DNA of 64,000 nt from Labia minor (lineage: Eukaryota; Arthropoda; Insecta; Dermaptera; Spongiphoridae): the NCBI GenBank assembly GCA_963082975.1, contig OY720347.1, positions 11,886,225 through 11,950,224 on the forward strand. Reading direction: 5' to 3'. This document shows, piece after piece, positions 6,346 through 63,345 of this stretch (positions within the stretch are counted from its first letter, which is position 1; each line of letters opens with the position of its first letter). The translations under genes and the position numbers were made by a program. Under the pieces are notes generated by a model. The model was not told the DNA's origin. It did no database searches and saw only the letters and a program-made list of their open reading frames with translations.

Positions 6346-6900
6346 CTGGAGTGTCTCCACTCGACTATCTCGCAATTTGAATTGGATTAAATAACATAAT
6401 ATATTATATTTAAATTAAATTAAATTAATAAATAATAATTATTAAACGAGTGCATGTTTGGTGCGTGAGATTTGCAGTGTTAAAAAATTAATTCTGGTAC
6501 TTTCAGCGATTCAATCAAGTTTAAATTTTATATATAGCAGTTTTATACAATTGTTAATCATGTGAAAAACTATCAAACATATATCTTTATTTTCACGATC
6601 ATTTTAGAGGAAAAAAAATCAAACGTTGTAAGTAATGACCCTCTTCCGGTTGAGCTACATTTCTCAAAAGTTGATAGAAAACGCGAACTTTGAATAATGC
6701 CCGTATACCAAATTTCATGATTCTAGCTCAAACCGGTTTTGCGTAATCTTGTCTACATACATGCATACACACACACACAGACAGACATTTTTCTCAACCT
6801 TAGTGAAAATGATTCAGGAACCTTTAAAACGTATAAAAACATCAAAATCTCAACATCGAAAATTTTAGTGATCGCAATACTATCTCTGACGAGATAGTAA
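6346..6900 (+). mobile_element. A-family repeat, copy 1 (near full length)
   Basis: Reference-like copy of the commonest repeat here. It starts CTGGAGTGTCTCCACTCGAC, continues with ACTATCTCGC, and ends with a degenerate copy of the family hairpin ACTATCTC-TGGC-GAGATAGT (here CTGAC in the loop region). ACTATCTCGC at the start and GCGAGATAGT at the end form a short subterminal inverted repeat. A central microsatellite (ACATACATGCATAC then (AC)n and CAGA) lies near 6758-6785. The first 200 bp are strongly AT-rich. Non-coding. Confidence 0.85.
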
Positions 6901-14073: not shown

Positions 14074-14710
14074 GTTGACCTGTGGACAGGTCCGAACAGA
14101 CCGACGGTTTGAAGTAAATTAATTTCCAGCTACAGAAACAATTTCAAATAATTTTAATATATCTATTAATGTAATAAAAAACAGATATGGATACATAAAT
14201 AATAAATATAAACATTTTTGATTTTATTTTATTTATAATATATATGCAAGACCAGGCTGTGACGTCATGAATGGCTGGATAACGTCATATAATTTTAAAT
14301 TAAGAAAAAACTAATAAATATGATTTTCCTGAGGATAAAACCAATACAAAGTGCATGATTCGTGGTGATATATAAAAAAATCTTCTCATGTGAAATTTGG
14401 TGTGAAAATAACCCTTCCCTTCCTATCGTCGATCGCTAATACTACCACTTCCGGTTTCCGGATTTGCACCAAAAGTTGATCAATTCATCCCACTGATGGA
14501 TTAAGTAAATATACCAAATTTCATCGAAATCCGTTTAGCCGTTTAGGCTGTACACATCTATACGGACAGACGGACGGACGGACGGACAGACATCATGCTA
14601 AAAATGCTTTTTTCTGTTAAGAAAATGCATGATTCGTGGAGATATGTAAAAATCTCCACATGTGAAATTTGGTGTGAAAACAATACCTCCCTTACTATCG
14701 TCGGTCGGTA
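14074..14710 (+). mobile_element. B-family repeat, copy 1 (full length)
   Basis: Begins GTTGACCTGTGGACAGGTCC, whose GACCTG-TGGA-CAGGTC can form a hairpin. Subterminal ACCGACGG-type sequence pairs with the terminal ATCGTCGGTCGGTA. The centre has TGACGTCA words, then two related half-units starting ATGATTCGTGG, one ending CCTATCGTCGATCGC and the other ACTATCGTCGGTCGG, separated by a (GGAC)n microsatellite near 14572-14590. Non-coding. Confidence 0.85.
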
Positions 14711-26165: not shown

Positions 26166-26506
26166 TACGGCATTCCATTGGAGAGTTAGACAAACATAAA
26201 CAGAAATGAAAATGAAATCTTATAAATATTTTTGAAAATAATTAAAATAAAAATCCTCCTCTAATGAATTCATTCGTCATTTTTACTTTGCTTTATTTGA
26301 AAATTAACTCTTTAATGAAATTAATACATTTACTTGGGAAAATATATCAATTTTCATTTAAAATTAAATTAATTACTAATATATAAATAATAATAATAAT
26401 AATTGTATAATCCAAAACATGATACACTAAACAACATAAAAAGATGTGATTGAAATTATATTATATTACTTAAATTAAAGAAATTAAATATTAATTAAAA
26501 ATAAAA
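26166..26506. other. AT-rich spacer
   Basis: TAA run near 26385-26402; nothing else. Confidence 0.45.
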
Positions 26507-27110
26507 GCTGGAGTGTCTCCACTCGACTATCCCGCAATTTGAATTGGATTAATTAACATATATTATATATTAAAATTAAATTTAATTAATTATAAATTAA
26601 AATTAAAAAATAATATTTATTAAATCAGCGCATGTTTGGGTCTTTGTTGATGGCACCACGTCACGTGTTGGCGTATGATTTGCAGTGTTGAAAAATTAAT
26701 TCCGGTACTTTCAGCGATTCAATCAAGCTAAAATTTTATATATAGCAGTTTTATACAATTTTTAATCATGTGAAAAATTATCAAACCTAGATCTTTATTT
26801 TTACGGTCACTTTAGAGGAAAAAAAATCAAAACGTTGTAGGTAATGACCCTCTTCTGGTTGAGCTACATTTCTCAAAAGTTGATAGAAAACTATGAATTT
26901 TGAATAATGCCCTTATACCAAAATTCATTATTCTAGCTCAAACCGTTTTTGCGTAATCTTGTCTACATACATACACACACGCATACACATACAGACATTT
27001 TTCTCAACGTTAATGAAAATGATTCAGGAACCTTCAAAACGTATAAAAACATAAAAATCTCAACATCGAAAATTTTAGTGATCGCAATACTATCTCTGGC
27101 GAGATAATAA
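26507..27110 (+). mobile_element. A-family repeat, copy 3 (full length)
   Basis: Starts GCTGGAGTGTCTCCACTCGA and ends with the hairpin ACTATCTCTGGCGAGATAAT. It retains the CACGTCACGTGTTGG block near 26655 and a short central microsatellite (ACATACACACACGCATAC). One of the best-preserved copies. Confidence 0.9.
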
Positions 27111-27893
27111 AAAAGAAAGAAAAAAAATAAATTTTAAATTTTACATTTCATTTTCATCTACCAAAACGAAATTTAAAAAATCTGATATTTGGACTAAATT
27201 ATTTATATAGGTAATATAGATATATACCAAACATTATAAATTTAATTCTAATGTAAAATTAAATTAATATATATTAAGATTTTAATTTAAATTAAATTAA
27301 TTTATATAAAAACAATTTCATTTTCATCCCAAAAAATTATTTATATTGTAATAAATAAAATGAATAAAATACATATAAAATGAATGTAGGTACAAGTAAA
27401 TGTATGTGTGACTATTTAATTTAAAATAATACCTATTAATAAATTATTATCGAAAAATATTTTTATATTTCTTTATAATTTATAAAAATCAAATTGAAAT
27501 ATATGAATGATGATGAATGTGAAATATATATACTTACACATCTTTAATATTTATTTTAAAATTTAATCAATAACACTTTTCGGTCAAGGTATGTGAAAAA
27601 AGAATGGCTCACAGAATAAATATAAAGTGATTGTGAGAAGGATATGCAAATGAACTTCCGAACAAGTAAAAAGAAAAAAAATACTTAAAAATATAGGTAT
27701 ATAACTTATTAATATTTCTAATTTGATACAGATTAAACCTAAGCATTTCCTATTTAATTTTATTTAATTATTATTATTTTTTTTTTTTTTTGTATATTTT
27801 TTTTATTCAAGAATTATATAAAAAAAAAATTAAAATCAGTAGAATGTAAATTTAAAAAAAAAGATTTCAAATAAATAATTTAATTATAAAATA
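27111..27893. other. AT-rich stretch
   Basis: T-rich run near 27778-27792. Nothing recognised. Confidence 0.45.
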
Positions 27894-28031
27894 AGCTGGA
27901 GTATCTCCATTCGACTATCTCGCTTGAATTAGATTAAATAACATAATATATTATATTTAAATTAAATTTAATAAATTATAAATTATAAATTAAAATTAAT
28001 AAATAATATTTATTAATCCAGTGCTTGTTTG
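27894..28031 (+). mobile_element. A-family repeat, copy 4 (5' fragment)
   Basis: GCTGGAGTATCTCCATTCGA through the AT-rich block to CCAGTGCTTGTTTG, then the match stops. Only the first quarter of the element is present. Confidence 0.8.
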
Positions 28032-34438: not shown

Positions 34439-34837
34439 CTGGAGTGTCTCTACTCGACTATCTCGCAAATTTGAATTGGATTAAATAACATAATATATTA
34501 TATTTAAATTAAATTTAATTAATTATAAATTATAAATTAAAATTAATAAATAATATTTATTTTTCCAGCGCATGTTTGGCTCTTTGTTGATGGCACCACG
34601 TCACGTGTTGGCACGAAAGATTTGCAATGTTAAAAAATTAATTCTGGTACTTTCAGCGATTCAATCAAGCTGAAATTCTATATATAGAAGTTTTATACAA
34701 TTATTATACATGTGAAAAAATTATCAAACATATATCTTTATTTTTACGGTCACTTTAGAAGAAAAAAAAAAACGTTGTAGGTAATGACCCTCTTTCTCTC
34801 GGTTGAACTACATTTCTCAAAAACCGTTTTTGCGTAA
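34439..34837 (+). mobile_element. A-family repeat, copy 5 (5' two-thirds)
   Basis: CTGGAGTGTCTCTACTCGAC through the CACGTCACGTGTTGG block to AAAACCGTTTTTGCGTAAT, then abruptly fused to the tail of an opposite-orientation A copy. Both outer ends of the composite at 34439-36909 are therefore A-family 5' ends. Confidence 0.85.
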
Positions 34838-34915
34838 TTTTCGATGTTGAGATTTTGATGTTTATATACGTTTTGAAGGTTCCTGAATCATTTTCACTAA
34901 GGTTGAGAAAAATGT

Positions 34916-34919
<4 letters not shown>

Positions 34920-34950
<31 letters not shown>
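34920..34950. repeat. (GT)n microsatellite, LINE 3' flank
   Basis: About 15 GT units, belonging to the A repeat's central tract, directly followed by the LINE's poly-T (poly-A on the minus strand). Confidence 0.9.
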
Positions 34951-34988
<38 letters not shown>

Positions 34989-36371
34989 TATAGCGAAGGA
35001 AATACATTTACGTATCATTAGGTTTATAAGGTTTGCCTAGTATGTCGGACTCAAGATGTTAATACCGACTAAAACCTCCGCTTTCCTCCAACCTCAATCC
35101 CTCACGGGAACCGCCGTTAGGCATTACTTCGTGGGGGGAGGACATAGCTAATGCTCTTCCTTCAGGTAGCTAAGGTGTTATTTTTCCTTTCTCCTAGTTG
35201 TTATCATTAGCTCTTTTTCTTTCTATGTAACGCAAGTCTGTAAGAACTTGTGTTGCAAATATGCTGATTGCGTTCCAGGCAGCCTCTGATGACAACATTG
35301 CTTCCACTATAGACTCTGGATAGATTCCTGTGTTTATAGATTTCTCTACATCATCTCGCTGTTGAGAAAAACGTATACACTCAAAGAAAACGTGTTCCGC
35401 ATTTTCTATAACTCCTGGACAGGACGGACACTCTGGAGAATCGTCATGCTTGAAACGGTGAAGATACTCACGAAAACAGCCGTGCCCTGACAACATCTGT
35501 GTTAGGTAATAGTTGACCTCGCCGTGACTCCGGTTCAGCCAAACATCAATCCTTGGTATTAGACGGTGCGTCCATCTACCCTTTTCCGCGGCATCCCACT
35601 GTAACTGCCATCGTGAAATACTATGTCGCCGTTCTTCTGCTCTCAGTTCTTCGGTGCTCATTATGTTTGACCTCTTCCGATGGTAGAGGTTCCGTCTTTC
35701 TTCAGCCAGAACTCTAAGTGGCAGAGTTCCTGAAATGACACACACCGCTTCCTCTGATATTGTTCGGAAGGCGCTGGCCACTCTTAACGCGCTTAACCGA
35801 TATACCGGACCAGCTCTTCTCCGCGATTCCTGGATCTCAAGTGCGTCAGCCCAAATGGATATACCATACGTGAGGACCGATGTAACCACTGATGATAGCA
35901 ATAACCTCCTCGTGTGCTTTGGGCCTCCGATGTTAGGCATAAGTCGTGATAGGCTAGCTACTACTGCTGATGCTTTAGCACTCACGTGTTCCACCTGCTG
36001 CTTAAACTTGAGCCGAGCATCAAGCATCACTCCCAAATATCGGATATAAGGTTGTGATGTGATCTCTTGTAGGCCGACTTTCAGTTTGATGGTCTCTATC
36101 ACTTTCCTGCTTGTAATAAGTACAGCCTCCGTTTTCTGTTTAGCCAGTTGAAGGTTCGCTGTATTCATCCACCGGTTAACTTGCTCGAAGGTGGTATCGA
36201 ACATGTGGTTGATCTCATCAAGGTGTTTGGCGACCACTACCACGGCTACATCATCCGCATATGCTACGAGTTTAACACTCCTTGGCAGATTCAGTCTCAA
36301 CAACCCGTCATACATGATATTCCAGAGAAGTGGACCCAGTACAGAACCTTGTGGTACTCCTCCAGTAACAT

Positions 36372-36373
<2 letters not shown>
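34951..36373 (-). mobile_element. 5'-truncated R1-clade LINE inserted in (AC)n
   Basis: Minus-strand non-LTR retrotransposon: a 37-base A tail (T run 34951-34987), a 3' UTR of about 200 bp containing TAGTCGGTATTAACATCTTG, and the end of the pol frame. It begins within RT motif B. (AC)n lies immediately on both sides inside one A-family repeat. R1-clade families such as Mino and Waldo are known for AC- or ACAY-repeat targets, so the placement fits target-specific insertion. Truncated, hence dead. Confidence 0.85.

Positions 36374-36375
<2 letters not shown>
35194..36375 (-). CDS. R1-clade LINE pol, RT C-terminal part (partial)
   Basis: Open frame of about 393 codons without internal stops, cut off at its N-terminus by the (AC)n junction, so the Met at 36315 is not the real start. 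Upstream of that Met the frame continues as TGGVPQGSVLGPLLWNI (RT motif B). YADD, the catalytic pair, lies at residues 19-22 counted from the Met; then come QLAKQKTEAVLI and IRYLGVMLDARL (thumb region, typical of R1/LOA-type pols). A CPSCPGVIENAEHVFFEC block (C-x2-C-x8-H-x4-C) near residue 320 is the C-terminal zinc knuckle. The role was target-primed reverse transcription. The fragment lacks the apurinic-type endonuclease and RT motifs 1-A, so it is inactive, but the intact frame suggests a recent insertion. The assignment to the R1 group is strong; the exact family is not certain. Confidence 0.85.

Positions 36376-36443
<68 letters not shown>
36374..36443. repeat. (GT)n microsatellite, LINE 5' flank
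   Basis: About 35 GT units, the longest dinucleotide tract in the 34-37 kb block, joining the truncated LINE to the A-repeat remnant (CATGTAACCAGGATTACGCA). Confidence 0.9.
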
Positions 36444-36444
<1 letters not shown>

Positions 36445-36909
36445 ATGTAACCAGGATTACGCAAAAACGGTTTGAGCTAGAATGATGAAATTTGGTACAT
36501 GGGCATTATTCAAAATTCATAGTTTTCTATCAACTTTTGAGAAATGTAGCTCAACCGAAAGAGGGTTATTACCTATAACGTTTTGATTTTTTTCCTCAAA
36601 AGTGACCCTAAAAATAAAGATATATGTTTGATAAATTTTCACATGATTAACAATTGTATAAAACTGCTATATATAGAATTTCAGCTTGATTGAATCGCTG
36701 AAAGTGCTAGAATTAATTTTTTAACACTGCAAATCTCACGCGCCAACACGTGACGGTGCCATCAACAAAGAGCCAAACATGCGCTGTTTTAATAAATATT
36801 ATTTATTAATTTTAATTTATAATTTAATTAATTTAATTTAATTTAAATTAATATAAGTTATTTAATCCAATTCAAATTTGCGAGATAGTCGAGTGGAGAA
36901 ACTTTAGCT

Positions 36910-37200
36910 TATTTTTTAAATTTGGTTCTAAAAAAAAAAGTAAACCGTTTGTCCCGGTTTGGTATTTGATGCCTGATGCATTAAGTACATAAATATCCCA
37001 AATTTTATCAAAATCCGTTGAGCCGTTGAAGCTTTACACGTCTATACGGAGACACAGACGGACAGAGGGACGGACAGACACCATGCTAAAAATACTTTTT
37101 TCTGTTAACGAAATGCATTATTCGTGGAGATATGTAAAAATCTCCAGATGGGAAATTTGGTGTGAAAACAATACCTTCCCTTCCTATCGTCGGACGGTAA
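36910..37200 (+). mobile_element. MITE-core fragment fused to B-family repeat, copy 4 (3' part)
   Basis: 36912-36965 carries a fragment of the shared core (AATTTGGTTCTAAAAAA, then TGTCCCGGTTTGGT as in the MITE at 8428). From 36966 it is the 3' third of a B repeat (TGATGCATTAAGTAC, the GGAC microsatellite, terminal ATCGTCGGACGGTAAAAA). The mosaic implies repeated deletion or template switching. Confidence 0.7.
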
Positions 37201-37586
37201 AAATTAAAAAACCAGGACATTTTTATTAGAGATCATTTTTTTTTCATTTTTTTCTTTTATAAATTTTTTTTTAATTAAAGTTTAAAAAAAGTATAAGTGA
37301 GTTTACTAATAATAATGTATTTAATATATGTTAAGGGTAAATAAGTATTTTCATTTAATTTCTTACATTGGGTTATTATAATTAAATTTTACTCAATATC
37401 AATTTTAGTTAATATTTCCACTAATATAGTATTATCCTTATTATACGATAATAAATATGTGTATAAGATCATAAAGGCAAATTGTTAATCTAATATGAAG
37501 CCCACACTATCATTAAATGGATCCTTCAATGAATGGGTCTACAAAAATGGTAGGGAATAAATCATTCATTCATTATAATTAGGTTA
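37201..37586. other. AT-rich spacer
   Basis: A short more complex patch near 37495-37560 (ATGGATCCTTCAATGAATGG). Nothing recognised. Confidence 0.4.
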
Positions 37587-37606
37587 ATTTATTATTATTA
37601 TTATTT
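37587..37606. repeat. (TAA)n tract, LINE 3' flank
   Basis: ATTATTATTATTATT on the plus strand, directly beyond the 3' end of the minus-strand LINE. Confidence 0.75.
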
Positions 37607-39244
37607 TTACATATATATAACTTTCTCAGCATTGGTGCCGGAAATATTGACCTATCCCTGAGATGTTATTTGGATTAGGTTCGGTTGATGTGGAAAGGGA
37701 ATTCACCCTGGCTCACATATCTGTGGTGGTGTGCTTTTTAATTGAGAAACTTTCGTACGATATGGCAAGTTTGTAATAAAATCGCTCTTTGGCCATTCGT
37801 AAAAATGTTTGTATTAAGTTGAAGTTTCTCAATATTAAAATGGAAGGTCTTGGAGACAACTCCCTCTGCAGACATCACTAATGGACAAATAGATACGTGG
37901 TCGAGCTTCCATATGTTTTTCAGTTGAAAAGCGAGTTCCTCATATTTCTGTTTTTTCTCTATCTCAATTTTATTGAGATTATGTGTGAGAGGGACTCCTA
38001 TTTCAACTATTGTGGCTGTGGATGTGTTGTTGTTTATGAGAAGGATATCAGGTCTGTTGTAATCAATTGACTTGTCAGTGAATACAGGTCTGTCCCAGTA
38101 AAGGATGATGTTGGATTTCTCTAAGACTGGTGCTGGGTCGTATTTGTAGTATGGTGGCGTGGTAATGTCTAACAATCCATATTTTATGCCCAGTTGTTGA
38201 TGAACTAATTTCGCAAGTTGATTGTGTCTATTTAGATAGGCATTATCAGCCAACGCAGAACATCCTCCCATTATATGCTCAATATTTTCACCTACTATGC
38301 CACATTTCCTACACTTGTCCTCAACGTTGGTCTTTAGGATATATTTCTCGTAATTTTTAGTTCGAATTACCCGGTCTTGGATGGCTATAATAAAACCTTC
38401 AGTCTCCGGATAAAGGTTTCCATCTCTCAGCCACTCGAAGGAAGCATCCTTATCCACGTTCTCGTTTTGGAGTAAGTTTGGAAATTTTCCGTGAAGTATT
38501 TTACCTCTCCAGGGTTCCCTTTCCTTCTTATTAATTATGAAGTCATTCTCATTCAGGTGTAGGGGAGTATAGCCCTTGTCTACTTGAGTTATGAGTTTCA
38601 TAAGTTCGTCTTCAGATGTTCGAATTCTGTTCCTCATATTTGCCTCTATTGATCTGCATAGGTTGAATATATCGATCAATCCTCTTCCACCTTCTTTTCT
38701 TGATAGATATAATCTTGTTGTAGAAGAGTTTGGATGTAGACAGCGAAATTTTGTAAGAAGTCTTCGGGTGGTTCTATCGAGTTCATCAAGGTTAGTATCT
38801 GACCATTTCACTGTTCCAAACGAATAAGTGAGTACAGGTATTGCCCAAGTGTTGATGGCTATTATAACATTCTTTCCTGATAATTTTGTATTTAGAATTT
38901 TCGTTACTCTTTTCCTGTATTTTTCTTGAAACGACTTCTTAAGTTGGGTGTGGTCAAATCTGATGTTTTGATATAGACCTAGATATTTATAGCTATCTTC
39001 AGCTCTTAACTCTTGAATGCCGTTTAAAGGTTCTCCCATGGAATCTTGTTTTCCCTTTTTGATGTTAATTATGGCACATTTGTCTAAGCCGAATGACATA
39101 CTAATGTCATCACTGAAATTTTTCACTGTATTGATTAAGCTTTGTAATTTTTCACGATTCTCCGCGTATAACTTTATATCATCCATAAATGAAAGGTGAT
39201 TTATTTTCCTCATATTCCTTTTGATTCTATAACCAATGTTCTCC

Positions 39245-39246
<2 letters not shown>
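37607..39246 (-). mobile_element. 5'-truncated R4/Dong-like LINE inserted in (TAA)n
   Basis: Minus-strand retrotransposon fragment with a short 3' UTR (about 37607-37737) and a pol tail with RLE-type endonuclease. It is bracketed by (TAA)n at 37587-37606 and 39247-39275. Dong, an R4-clade element first found in silkworm, is known from TAA-repeat targets, so the context agrees with the protein. Truncated just upstream of the RT catalytic box. Confidence 0.8.
37738..39246 (-). CDS. RT plus restriction-like endonuclease tail of an R4/Dong-like LINE (partial)
   Basis: About 500 open codons with no internal stop; the frame continues upstream of the Met at 39213 (ENIGYRIKRN) into the (TAA)n tract, so the N-terminus is missing. 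Residues counted from that Met: HLSFMDDIKLYA (6-17) holds the catalytic MDD of the RT; FSDDISMSFGLDKCA (33-47) and YKYLGLYQ (75-82) are thumb-region blocks; RKEGGRGLI (172-180) is characteristic of this group. A CRKCGIVGENIEHIMGGC block (301-318, C-x2-C-x8-H-x4-C) is the zinc knuckle. YNRPDILLI...TIVEIGVPL (385-409) supplies the PD...E core of a restriction-enzyme-like endonuclease, followed by K-rich KIEIEKKQKYEELAFQL. Such proteins nick the target and prime reverse transcription from it. The fragment lacks most of the RT fingers/palm and is inactive; the open frame suggests recent arrival. R4/Dong is the best fit; R2 or NeSL-like are alternatives. Confidence 0.85.

Positions 39247-39275
<29 letters not shown>
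39247..39275. repeat. (TAA)n tract, LINE 5' flank
   Basis: About nine TTA units on the plus strand directly abutting the truncated LINE. Confidence 0.85.
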
Positions 39276-39276
<1 letters not shown>

Positions 39277-39379
39277 ATCAATTGTATAATCAGTTTAAGA
39301 ATAAAGAATATTTGATTCATAATCAAAAAAAAGAGATATTGAAGAAAGTGTATTGATATTAACAAATTATTCTATATAC

Positions 39380-47546: not shown

Positions 47547-48136
47547 CTCTTTTCCTCTAAAGTAACCATAAAAATAAAGATATATGTTTGATACTATTTC
47601 ACATGATTAAAAATTGTATAAAACAGCTATATATAGAATTTCAGCTTGATTGAATCGCTGAAAGTACCGGAATTAATTTTTTAACACTGCAAATCATGAG
47701 CCAACACGTGACGTGGTGCCATCAACTAAGAGCCAAACATGCGCTCGTTTAATAAATATTATTCATAAATTTTAATTTTAATTTATATTTAATTAAATTT
47801 AATTTAAATATCTTCTTCTTAAGGTGCCGTCTCCCTTTCGGAGTTTGGCTATCATCATGACTAGGATAGCTTTAGAAGCAATGATAATTTTTCTTGGGAA
47901 TGTTAATGCGGTGGTTTCCCGTTGCCTTACGCATGTATAGAACCAGGAACTGACAGTTCCTGGAGCCGGAGACAGCTGATGTTAAATTGATTTTTATTAG
48001 AAAAATTTGTTCTTAGTTGGAATTGAACGCCGACTTCTTGTGTAGAAAATTGTTATGCTACACTCTCGGCTAGCTGTCTCCTTAATTTAAATATAACATA
48101 TGTTAATTAATTCAATTCAAATTTGCGAGATAGTAG
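47547..48136 (-). mobile_element. A-family repeat, copy 10, inverted 5' half
   Basis: Reverse-oriented 5' half of an A repeat (CTCTAAAGTAACCATAAAAA at the left, GCGAGATAGTAGAGG at the right), directly followed by a forward 3' half at 48137. Together the halves make one complete element whose 5' half is flipped. A SINE is inserted at 47811-48081. Confidence 0.85.
47811..48081 (-). mobile_element. tRNA-derived SINE nested in an A repeat
   Basis: Minus strand. The head GGAGACAGCTAGCCGAGAGT contains an A-box-like TAGCCGAGAGTG about 10 bases in, and GGCGTTCAATTCC at about base 53 fits a B-box, both at tRNA spacing. The body includes GGCAACGGGAAACCACCGCA, and the tail GGGAGACGGCACCTTAAG ends in (AAG)n. 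Flanked by a perfect 12-bp duplication TTAATTTAAATA (47799-47810, 48082-48093), proof of insertion into the A repeat. Depends on a LINE for retrotransposition. Confidence 0.85.
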
Positions 48137-61927: not shown

Positions 61928-62557
61928 GTTGGAGTGTTTCCGTCCACTTGACTATCTCGCAATTTGAATTGGATTAAACAACATAATATATTATATTTCA
62001 ATTAAATTTTATTAATTATAAATTACAAATTAAAATTAATAAATAATGTGTATTAAACCAGGGCGTGTATGGATCTTTGTTGATGGCACCACGCCACGTA
62101 CTGGCGCGTGATTATCAGTGTTAAAAAATTAATTCTGGTACTTTCAGCAATTCAATCAAGATGAAATTATATATATAGCAGTTTTATACAATTATTAATC
62201 ATGTGAAAAATTATCAAACATATATCTTTATTTTTACGGTCACTTTAGTGGAAAAAAAATCAAAACGTTGTAGGTAATGACCCTCTTCCGGTTGAGCTAC
62301 ATTTCTCAAAAGTTGATAAAAAAACTACGAATTTTGAATAAAGCCCATGTACCAAATTTCATGATTCTAGCTCAAACCGTTTTTTGAGTAATCTTGTCTA
62401 CATACATACATACATACACATACACACACAGAGACAGACAGACATTTTTCTCAACCTTAGTGAAAATGATTCAGGATCCTTCAAAACGTATAAAAACAAC
62501 AAAATCTCAACATCGAAAATTTTCGTGGCCGCAATACTATTTCTGGCGAGATAGTAA
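61928..62557 (+). mobile_element. A-family repeat, copy 11 (full length)
   Basis: GTTGGAGTGTTTCCGTCCAC start and the hairpin ACTATTTCTGGCGAGATAGT at the end, all internal blocks present, microsatellite ACATACATACATAC/(CA)n near 62399-62445. Directly abuts the Helitron-like unit starting at 62558. Confidence 0.9.

Positions 62558-63250: not shown

Positions 63251-63345
<95 letters not shown>

Follow-up and report, generated by a model that had tools for sequence, protein, structure and literature searches.

A truncated LINE of likely R1-clade affinity nested in the AC microsatellite of a DINE-like repeat

The window analysed here, the whole 64-kb stretch of DNA, contains a 5'-truncated LINE with an AC tract at each end. 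Since these two tracts and the sequences outside them make up a single interrupted copy of a dispersed repeat, named repeat A, which can be aligned with its sister copies, the conclusion that the LINE was inserted into the built-in AC microsatellite of repeat A is well supported by the sequence comparisons, and the nested insertion is clear. This single case unites two known things: LINEs that target AC repeats, and microsatellites carried by DINE-like elements.

The LINE and its interrupted host copy of repeat A

The LINE lies on the minus strand at 34951-36373 and is 1423 bp in length. It starts inside the reverse transcriptase, immediately ahead of the GVPQGSVLGP motif, and retains the 3' part of ORF2 (35194-36372, minus strand; 392 aa plus stop), with reverse transcriptase followed by a CCHC motif. 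Beyond the stop, the LINE ends in a 3' untranslated stretch of 206 bp and an uninterrupted poly-A tail of 37 nt (34951-34987, minus strand; T(37) on the plus strand). An AC tract of 70 bp (36374-36443) abuts the truncated 5' end and one of 32 bp (34919-34950) abuts the poly-A tail; both are pure, both lie on the minus strand and read TG on the plus strand, and the sense strand of the LINE is the AC strand. As the AC tracts and the poly-A tail are pure and the reading frame is open, the insertion appears to be young. An earlier note on this DNA had described a minus-strand LINE with (AC)n at its poly-A end and at its truncated 5' end, which is borne out, and its coordinates were correct to within a few bases.

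Outside the two tracts lie the two parts of the host copy of repeat A, both on the minus strand. The main part (36444-36907) forms the 5' side and carries the sub-terminal motif GACTATCTCGC at 36880-36890, and the tail (34836-34918) forms the 3' side, where the terminal hairpin is absent and the last 3 bp are common to a neighbouring A copy. Read along the minus strand, the A main part (36907-36444) is followed by an AC tract (36443-36374), the LINE (36373-34951), a second AC tract (34950-34919) and the A tail (34918-34836/34838). When the host flanks were compared with the window by BLAST, main part and tail were found adjacent in other A copies, with order and orientation unchanged, for instance at 26493-26968 and then 26993-27074, and the joined flanks align with the sister A copies across the tract in a MAFFT alignment. 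Both results confirm the earlier claim that a single A-family copy holds both AC tracts. An AC or ACAN tract is present at the position of the LINE in seven of the nine A copies that span it, the host counted; the other two have no AC-like tract there, with mainly TA-type sequence in c2 and a deletion in c8. Three plus-strand A copies that carry both the tract and the 3' hairpin but no LINE serve as empty-site references: 6346-6899 with an AC tract, 26508-27109 with an AC/ACAT tract, and 61936-62556 with an ACAT/AC tract, the start of the last being its BLAST start; this copy may in fact extend a few bases further upstream.

At the left junction, the host tail meets a second A copy (34439-34838, plus strand), which is inverted relative to the host, is truncated ahead of its microsatellite position and matches 36535-36927 by BLAST; the two inverted parts share 88.7% identity across 406 alignment columns. 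Host tail and inverted copy have the 3 bp AAT (34836-34838) in common at the junction, and the 3' hairpin is missing from both (34439-36907). Despite this neighbour, both AC tracts belong to the minus-strand A copy, as follows from the strand polarity of the AC repeats and the orientation of the tail. We also considered whether the two tracts could come from two inverted A copies. The LINE is indeed flanked by one minus-strand and one plus-strand copy, but that arrangement predicts AC on one side of the LINE and GT on the other. It was rejected, since AC is the minus-strand reading of both tracts and the tail beside the left tract is minus-oriented.

The host tract is exceptional in length, with 102 bp of pure AC in two pieces against 16-28 bp in the six other A copies under a loose scan, or up to 32 bp in those copies once the ACAN scan is joined in. 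An AC-targeting insertion, the model preferred below, does not by itself account for this excess. The host tract might have been long before the insertion and hence a better target; growth of the tracts by slippage after the insertion is also possible.

Repeat A and the local supply of AC tracts

Nine A copies span the position between main part and tail: c1 (at 6.3 kb), c2 (11.1 kb), c3 (26.5 kb), the host, c7 (42.5 kb), c8 (43.8 kb), c9 (46.1 kb), c10 (48.1 kb) and c11 (62 kb). The partial copies c4 (27872-28031), c5b (the inverted neighbour) and c10b (47550-47811) lack this position and are outside the nine, but are included in the area assigned to repeat A below; c5b is also among the ten copies scanned for motifs. 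Short BLAST matches of 39-81 columns in AT-rich stretches were excluded from the A copies.

In the motif scan, a start like CTGGAGTGTCTCCACT (up to three errors) was found in seven of ten copies, and GACTATCTCGC (up to one error), located after the start, in all except c10. The 3' hairpin (up to three errors) was present in c1, c3, c7 and c11, four of the ten, and absent at that threshold from c2, the host (c5), c5b, c8 and c10, while in c9 a shorter hairpin match occurs some 150 bp beyond the tail. The hairpin takes the form TACTATCTC-TGGC-GAGATAGTA in c7; its arm matches 10 of the 11 bases of GACTATCTCGC in reverse complement. The flanks of the A copies are A-rich. DINE-1 and HINE elements are described as Helentron-related, with inverted repeats in sub-terminal positions, a palindrome at the 3' end and a microsatellite (PMC4067079). 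Repeat A has the sub-terminal inverted repeat and 3' palindrome that mark these elements, and an internal microsatellite in seven of nine copies; like DINE-1/INE-1 and HINE it is short, with its motif in a 5' sub-terminal position and A/T-rich flanks (PMC4067079). The spacing differs, however. In repeat A the motif starts 17 nt from the 5' end seen here, and the hairpin arm itself serves as its 3' counterpart; the sub-terminal repeats of HINE are placed 2-4 nt from the 5' end and 38-60 bp from the 3' end (PMC4067079). On these sequence features, repeat A resembles DINE-like elements, short of being a proven Helentron derivative. Helentron-type non-autonomous elements insert between TT without target duplication, and have an autonomous Helentron partner. 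A search of viral contigs with a sequence pattern of repeat A returned 0 matches.

A second dispersed repeat family was seen at 36973-37211 and again at 14493, 16539, 18844, 39799 and 51350, with 82.6-88.7% identity by BLAST. It carries short repeats of the GACGGACAGA/GTCC type and recalls the GTCY-carrying insect elements named in PMC4067079.

Of the 62,577 LINE-free bases of the window, 486 bp (0.78%) are AC-like tracts and 248 bp (0.40%) are such tracts within repeat A; without the two host tracts, these values are 374 bp (0.60%) and 136 bp (0.22%). The loose AC scan places 7 of 17 AC-like loci in repeat A, which occupies 9.4% of the LINE-free window (binomial P = 5e-4). In this count the host is among the seven and the two tracts flanking the LINE are one locus; the A extents that give the 9.4% were drawn manually on the basis of BLAST and MAFFT. 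The other 10 loci are outside repeat A. The stricter ACAN scan lists 16 rows, of which 7 fall in repeat A; counted as loci, repeat A has 6 of the 15, with 196 of 448 bp. Repeat A enriches the local DNA in AC targets, and does so by construction since the AC tract is part of the repeat. The longest tract of the ACAN scan, a pure ACAG-type array of 94 bp at 63251-63344, lies outside repeat A.

Domain content and clade of the LINE

Pfam comparison of the LINE ORF gave a match to RVT_1 (E=1.6e-14) and one to zf-RVT (E=3.6e-4) whose 21.6 bits fall below the cut-off of 27.5. A C-x2-C-x8-H-x4-C (CCHC) motif is located at residue 315, and no Pfam match to RNase H was found in the ORF. The TRAS elements of the R1 clade are described with an endonuclease, reverse transcriptase and zinc finger layout that includes zf-RVT (PMC4686597, PMC5563155). 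The domain layout of the LINE, as predicted from its ORF, is compatible with the R1 clade, and other clades may share the same layout. The R1 clade is described as target-specific, and the earlier statement on Mino is borne out in print, where this R1-clade element is said to insert into AC repeats (PMC3124438). Given the domain layout together with the AC target, the LINE is likely to be a member of the R1 clade. Its target specificity is unreadable from the endonuclease, as this copy is truncated within the reverse transcriptase domain and lacks the endonuclease region.

Waldo-A and Waldo-B, which are also R1-clade elements, have an ACAY target. The LINE is like them in its AC-type microsatellite target, and the ACAT/ACAC tract of repeat A is similar to theirs, but the LINE was inserted in the pure AC part of the tract; this likeness is one of description. 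Mino is likewise matched by description and not by sequence comparison, in an AC-repeat target (PMC3124438) and an R1-compatible layout, with the differences that the present copy lacks the endonuclease region and that its AC target was seen once. A microsatellite target of AC/TG type is also found outside the R1 clade: Togen, a NeSL-related element from fish and thus of a different LINE group, is reported as TG-microsatellite-specific (PMC4640811), and by description alone it resembles the LINE in this respect.

Searches of sequence collections returned distant matches at most. These collections comprise viruses, phages, plasmids and prokaryotes, with no animal genomes as such, and are uninformative on the abundance of the LINE. 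The LINE protein gave pattern matches in two stretches of viral contigs and matches to the reverse transcriptase core in five, none confirmed by tblastn; a degenerate DNA pattern for R1-type reverse transcriptase gave 0 matches in the viral contigs, and tblastn of the LINE against phages and plasmids gave 0. Four loci came from a scan of the contig collection. Two are distant and RT-like, L001 with 26% identity over 257 columns (E=9.6e-9) on a contig of 62% GC and L002 with a 45-column piece (E=9.8e-6) on a contig of 69% GC; L003 was without a match and L004 gave nothing better than E=2.9. The four loci were left out of all later comparisons. Against solved structures, all six matches were weak (E 0.0056 to 0.47), and they comprised group II intron, maturase and retron-type reverse transcriptases plus one Cas6-RT-Cas1.

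Probable insertion by AC targeting and its alternatives

We consider it probable that target-primed reverse transcription placed an AC-preferring LINE, presumably of the R1-clade Mino/Waldo type, in the AC tract of the DINE-like repeat A. This model is supported by the split of repeat A at its microsatellite, the AC on both sides, the agreement of the LINE sense strand with the AC strand, the poly-A placed directly on AC and the truncation within the reverse transcriptase domain. Against it stand the single insertion, the two of nine spanning A copies that have no AC-like tract, and the zf-RVT score under the cut-off. A target-site duplication is undetectable at this locus because the LINE sits inside an AC repeat. 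In such an insertion, the GT strand of the tract in repeat A would be nicked and cDNA synthesis primed from the poly-A tail. Synthesis would then have halted early, within the reverse transcriptase gene, and the truncated 5' end would have been joined to AC, perhaps through a short overlap. Junctions of 5'-truncated R1 and R2 copies with short overlaps are described in PMC2718515. Repeat A as such would not be required by this mechanism; it would merely offer AC tracts, so that targeting of A copies would scale with their content of AC DNA.

Alternatively, a LINE without target preference may have hit the AC tract of repeat A by chance, with simple repeats being merely tolerated or prone to nicking. 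We judge this unlikely. With AC-like tracts at 0.78% of the LINE-free window, the base rate for a blind hit is low, and the layout of the LINE domains would suit a clade with known target specificity; the same 0.78% means that a chance case picked post hoc is conceivable. The landing of one blind LINE in an AC tract is thus improbable, but n is 1 and the case was chosen post hoc: by BLAST and ORF comparison, the 64-kb window holds no second copy of the AC-flanked LINE. It is also conceivable that the LINE first resided in an AC tract elsewhere, and that it was then linked to A pieces, maybe from different A copies, through recombination or gene conversion involving AC tracts at both places. 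The site is rearranged in a manner that would suit such an event: the host tail directly adjoins the inverted A copy, and at this junction neither copy has its end. Yet the host pieces are ordered and oriented as in a single A copy, and one insertion is simpler, which makes recombination very unlikely. The AC tracts might instead have arisen after the insertion, out of the poly-A tail of the LINE and not from repeat A; microsatellites are thought to originate at the A-tails of retroposons. Growth from the poly-A tail alone was rejected, as AC is also present at the 5' end, where the LINE has no A-tail. An origin of the tracts after insertion is largely refuted by the alignment, in which six other A copies show an AC-like tract in this position, and we regard it as barely credible.

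The earlier note proposed that the microsatellite of repeat A acts as a landing pad for the LINE. This proposal is partly supported. The insertion does lie in the AC tract of repeat A, and repeat A does hold 7 of the 17 AC-like loci, but the window has only one LINE copy, and a single copy cannot demonstrate such a role. By extension, the spread of repeat A may multiply "safe" targets for the LINE. The stronger proposition, that DINE-like repeat A is the main genomic niche of the LINE and that most LINE copies reside in its tract, we consider doubtful. If it were true, the copy number of one transposon would set the target supply of another. Should the pattern be genome-wide, the spread of the carrier repeat could be used to measure, and to date, the supply of targets for a site-specific LINE.

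A second truncated LINE is present at 37589-39274 on the minus strand, with an ORF at 37741-39294 that matches RVT_1 (E=2.4e-7). By eye, its C-terminal part is like the restriction-like endonuclease of R4/Dong-type elements; Dong inserts in TAA repeats. The element lies between AAT-type repeats at 39245-39274 (30 bp) and 37589-37603 (15 bp), and 11 AAT-type tracts of at least 15 bp are found in the window. If this reading of the second LINE is true, both recognised LINEs in the window sit in microsatellites.
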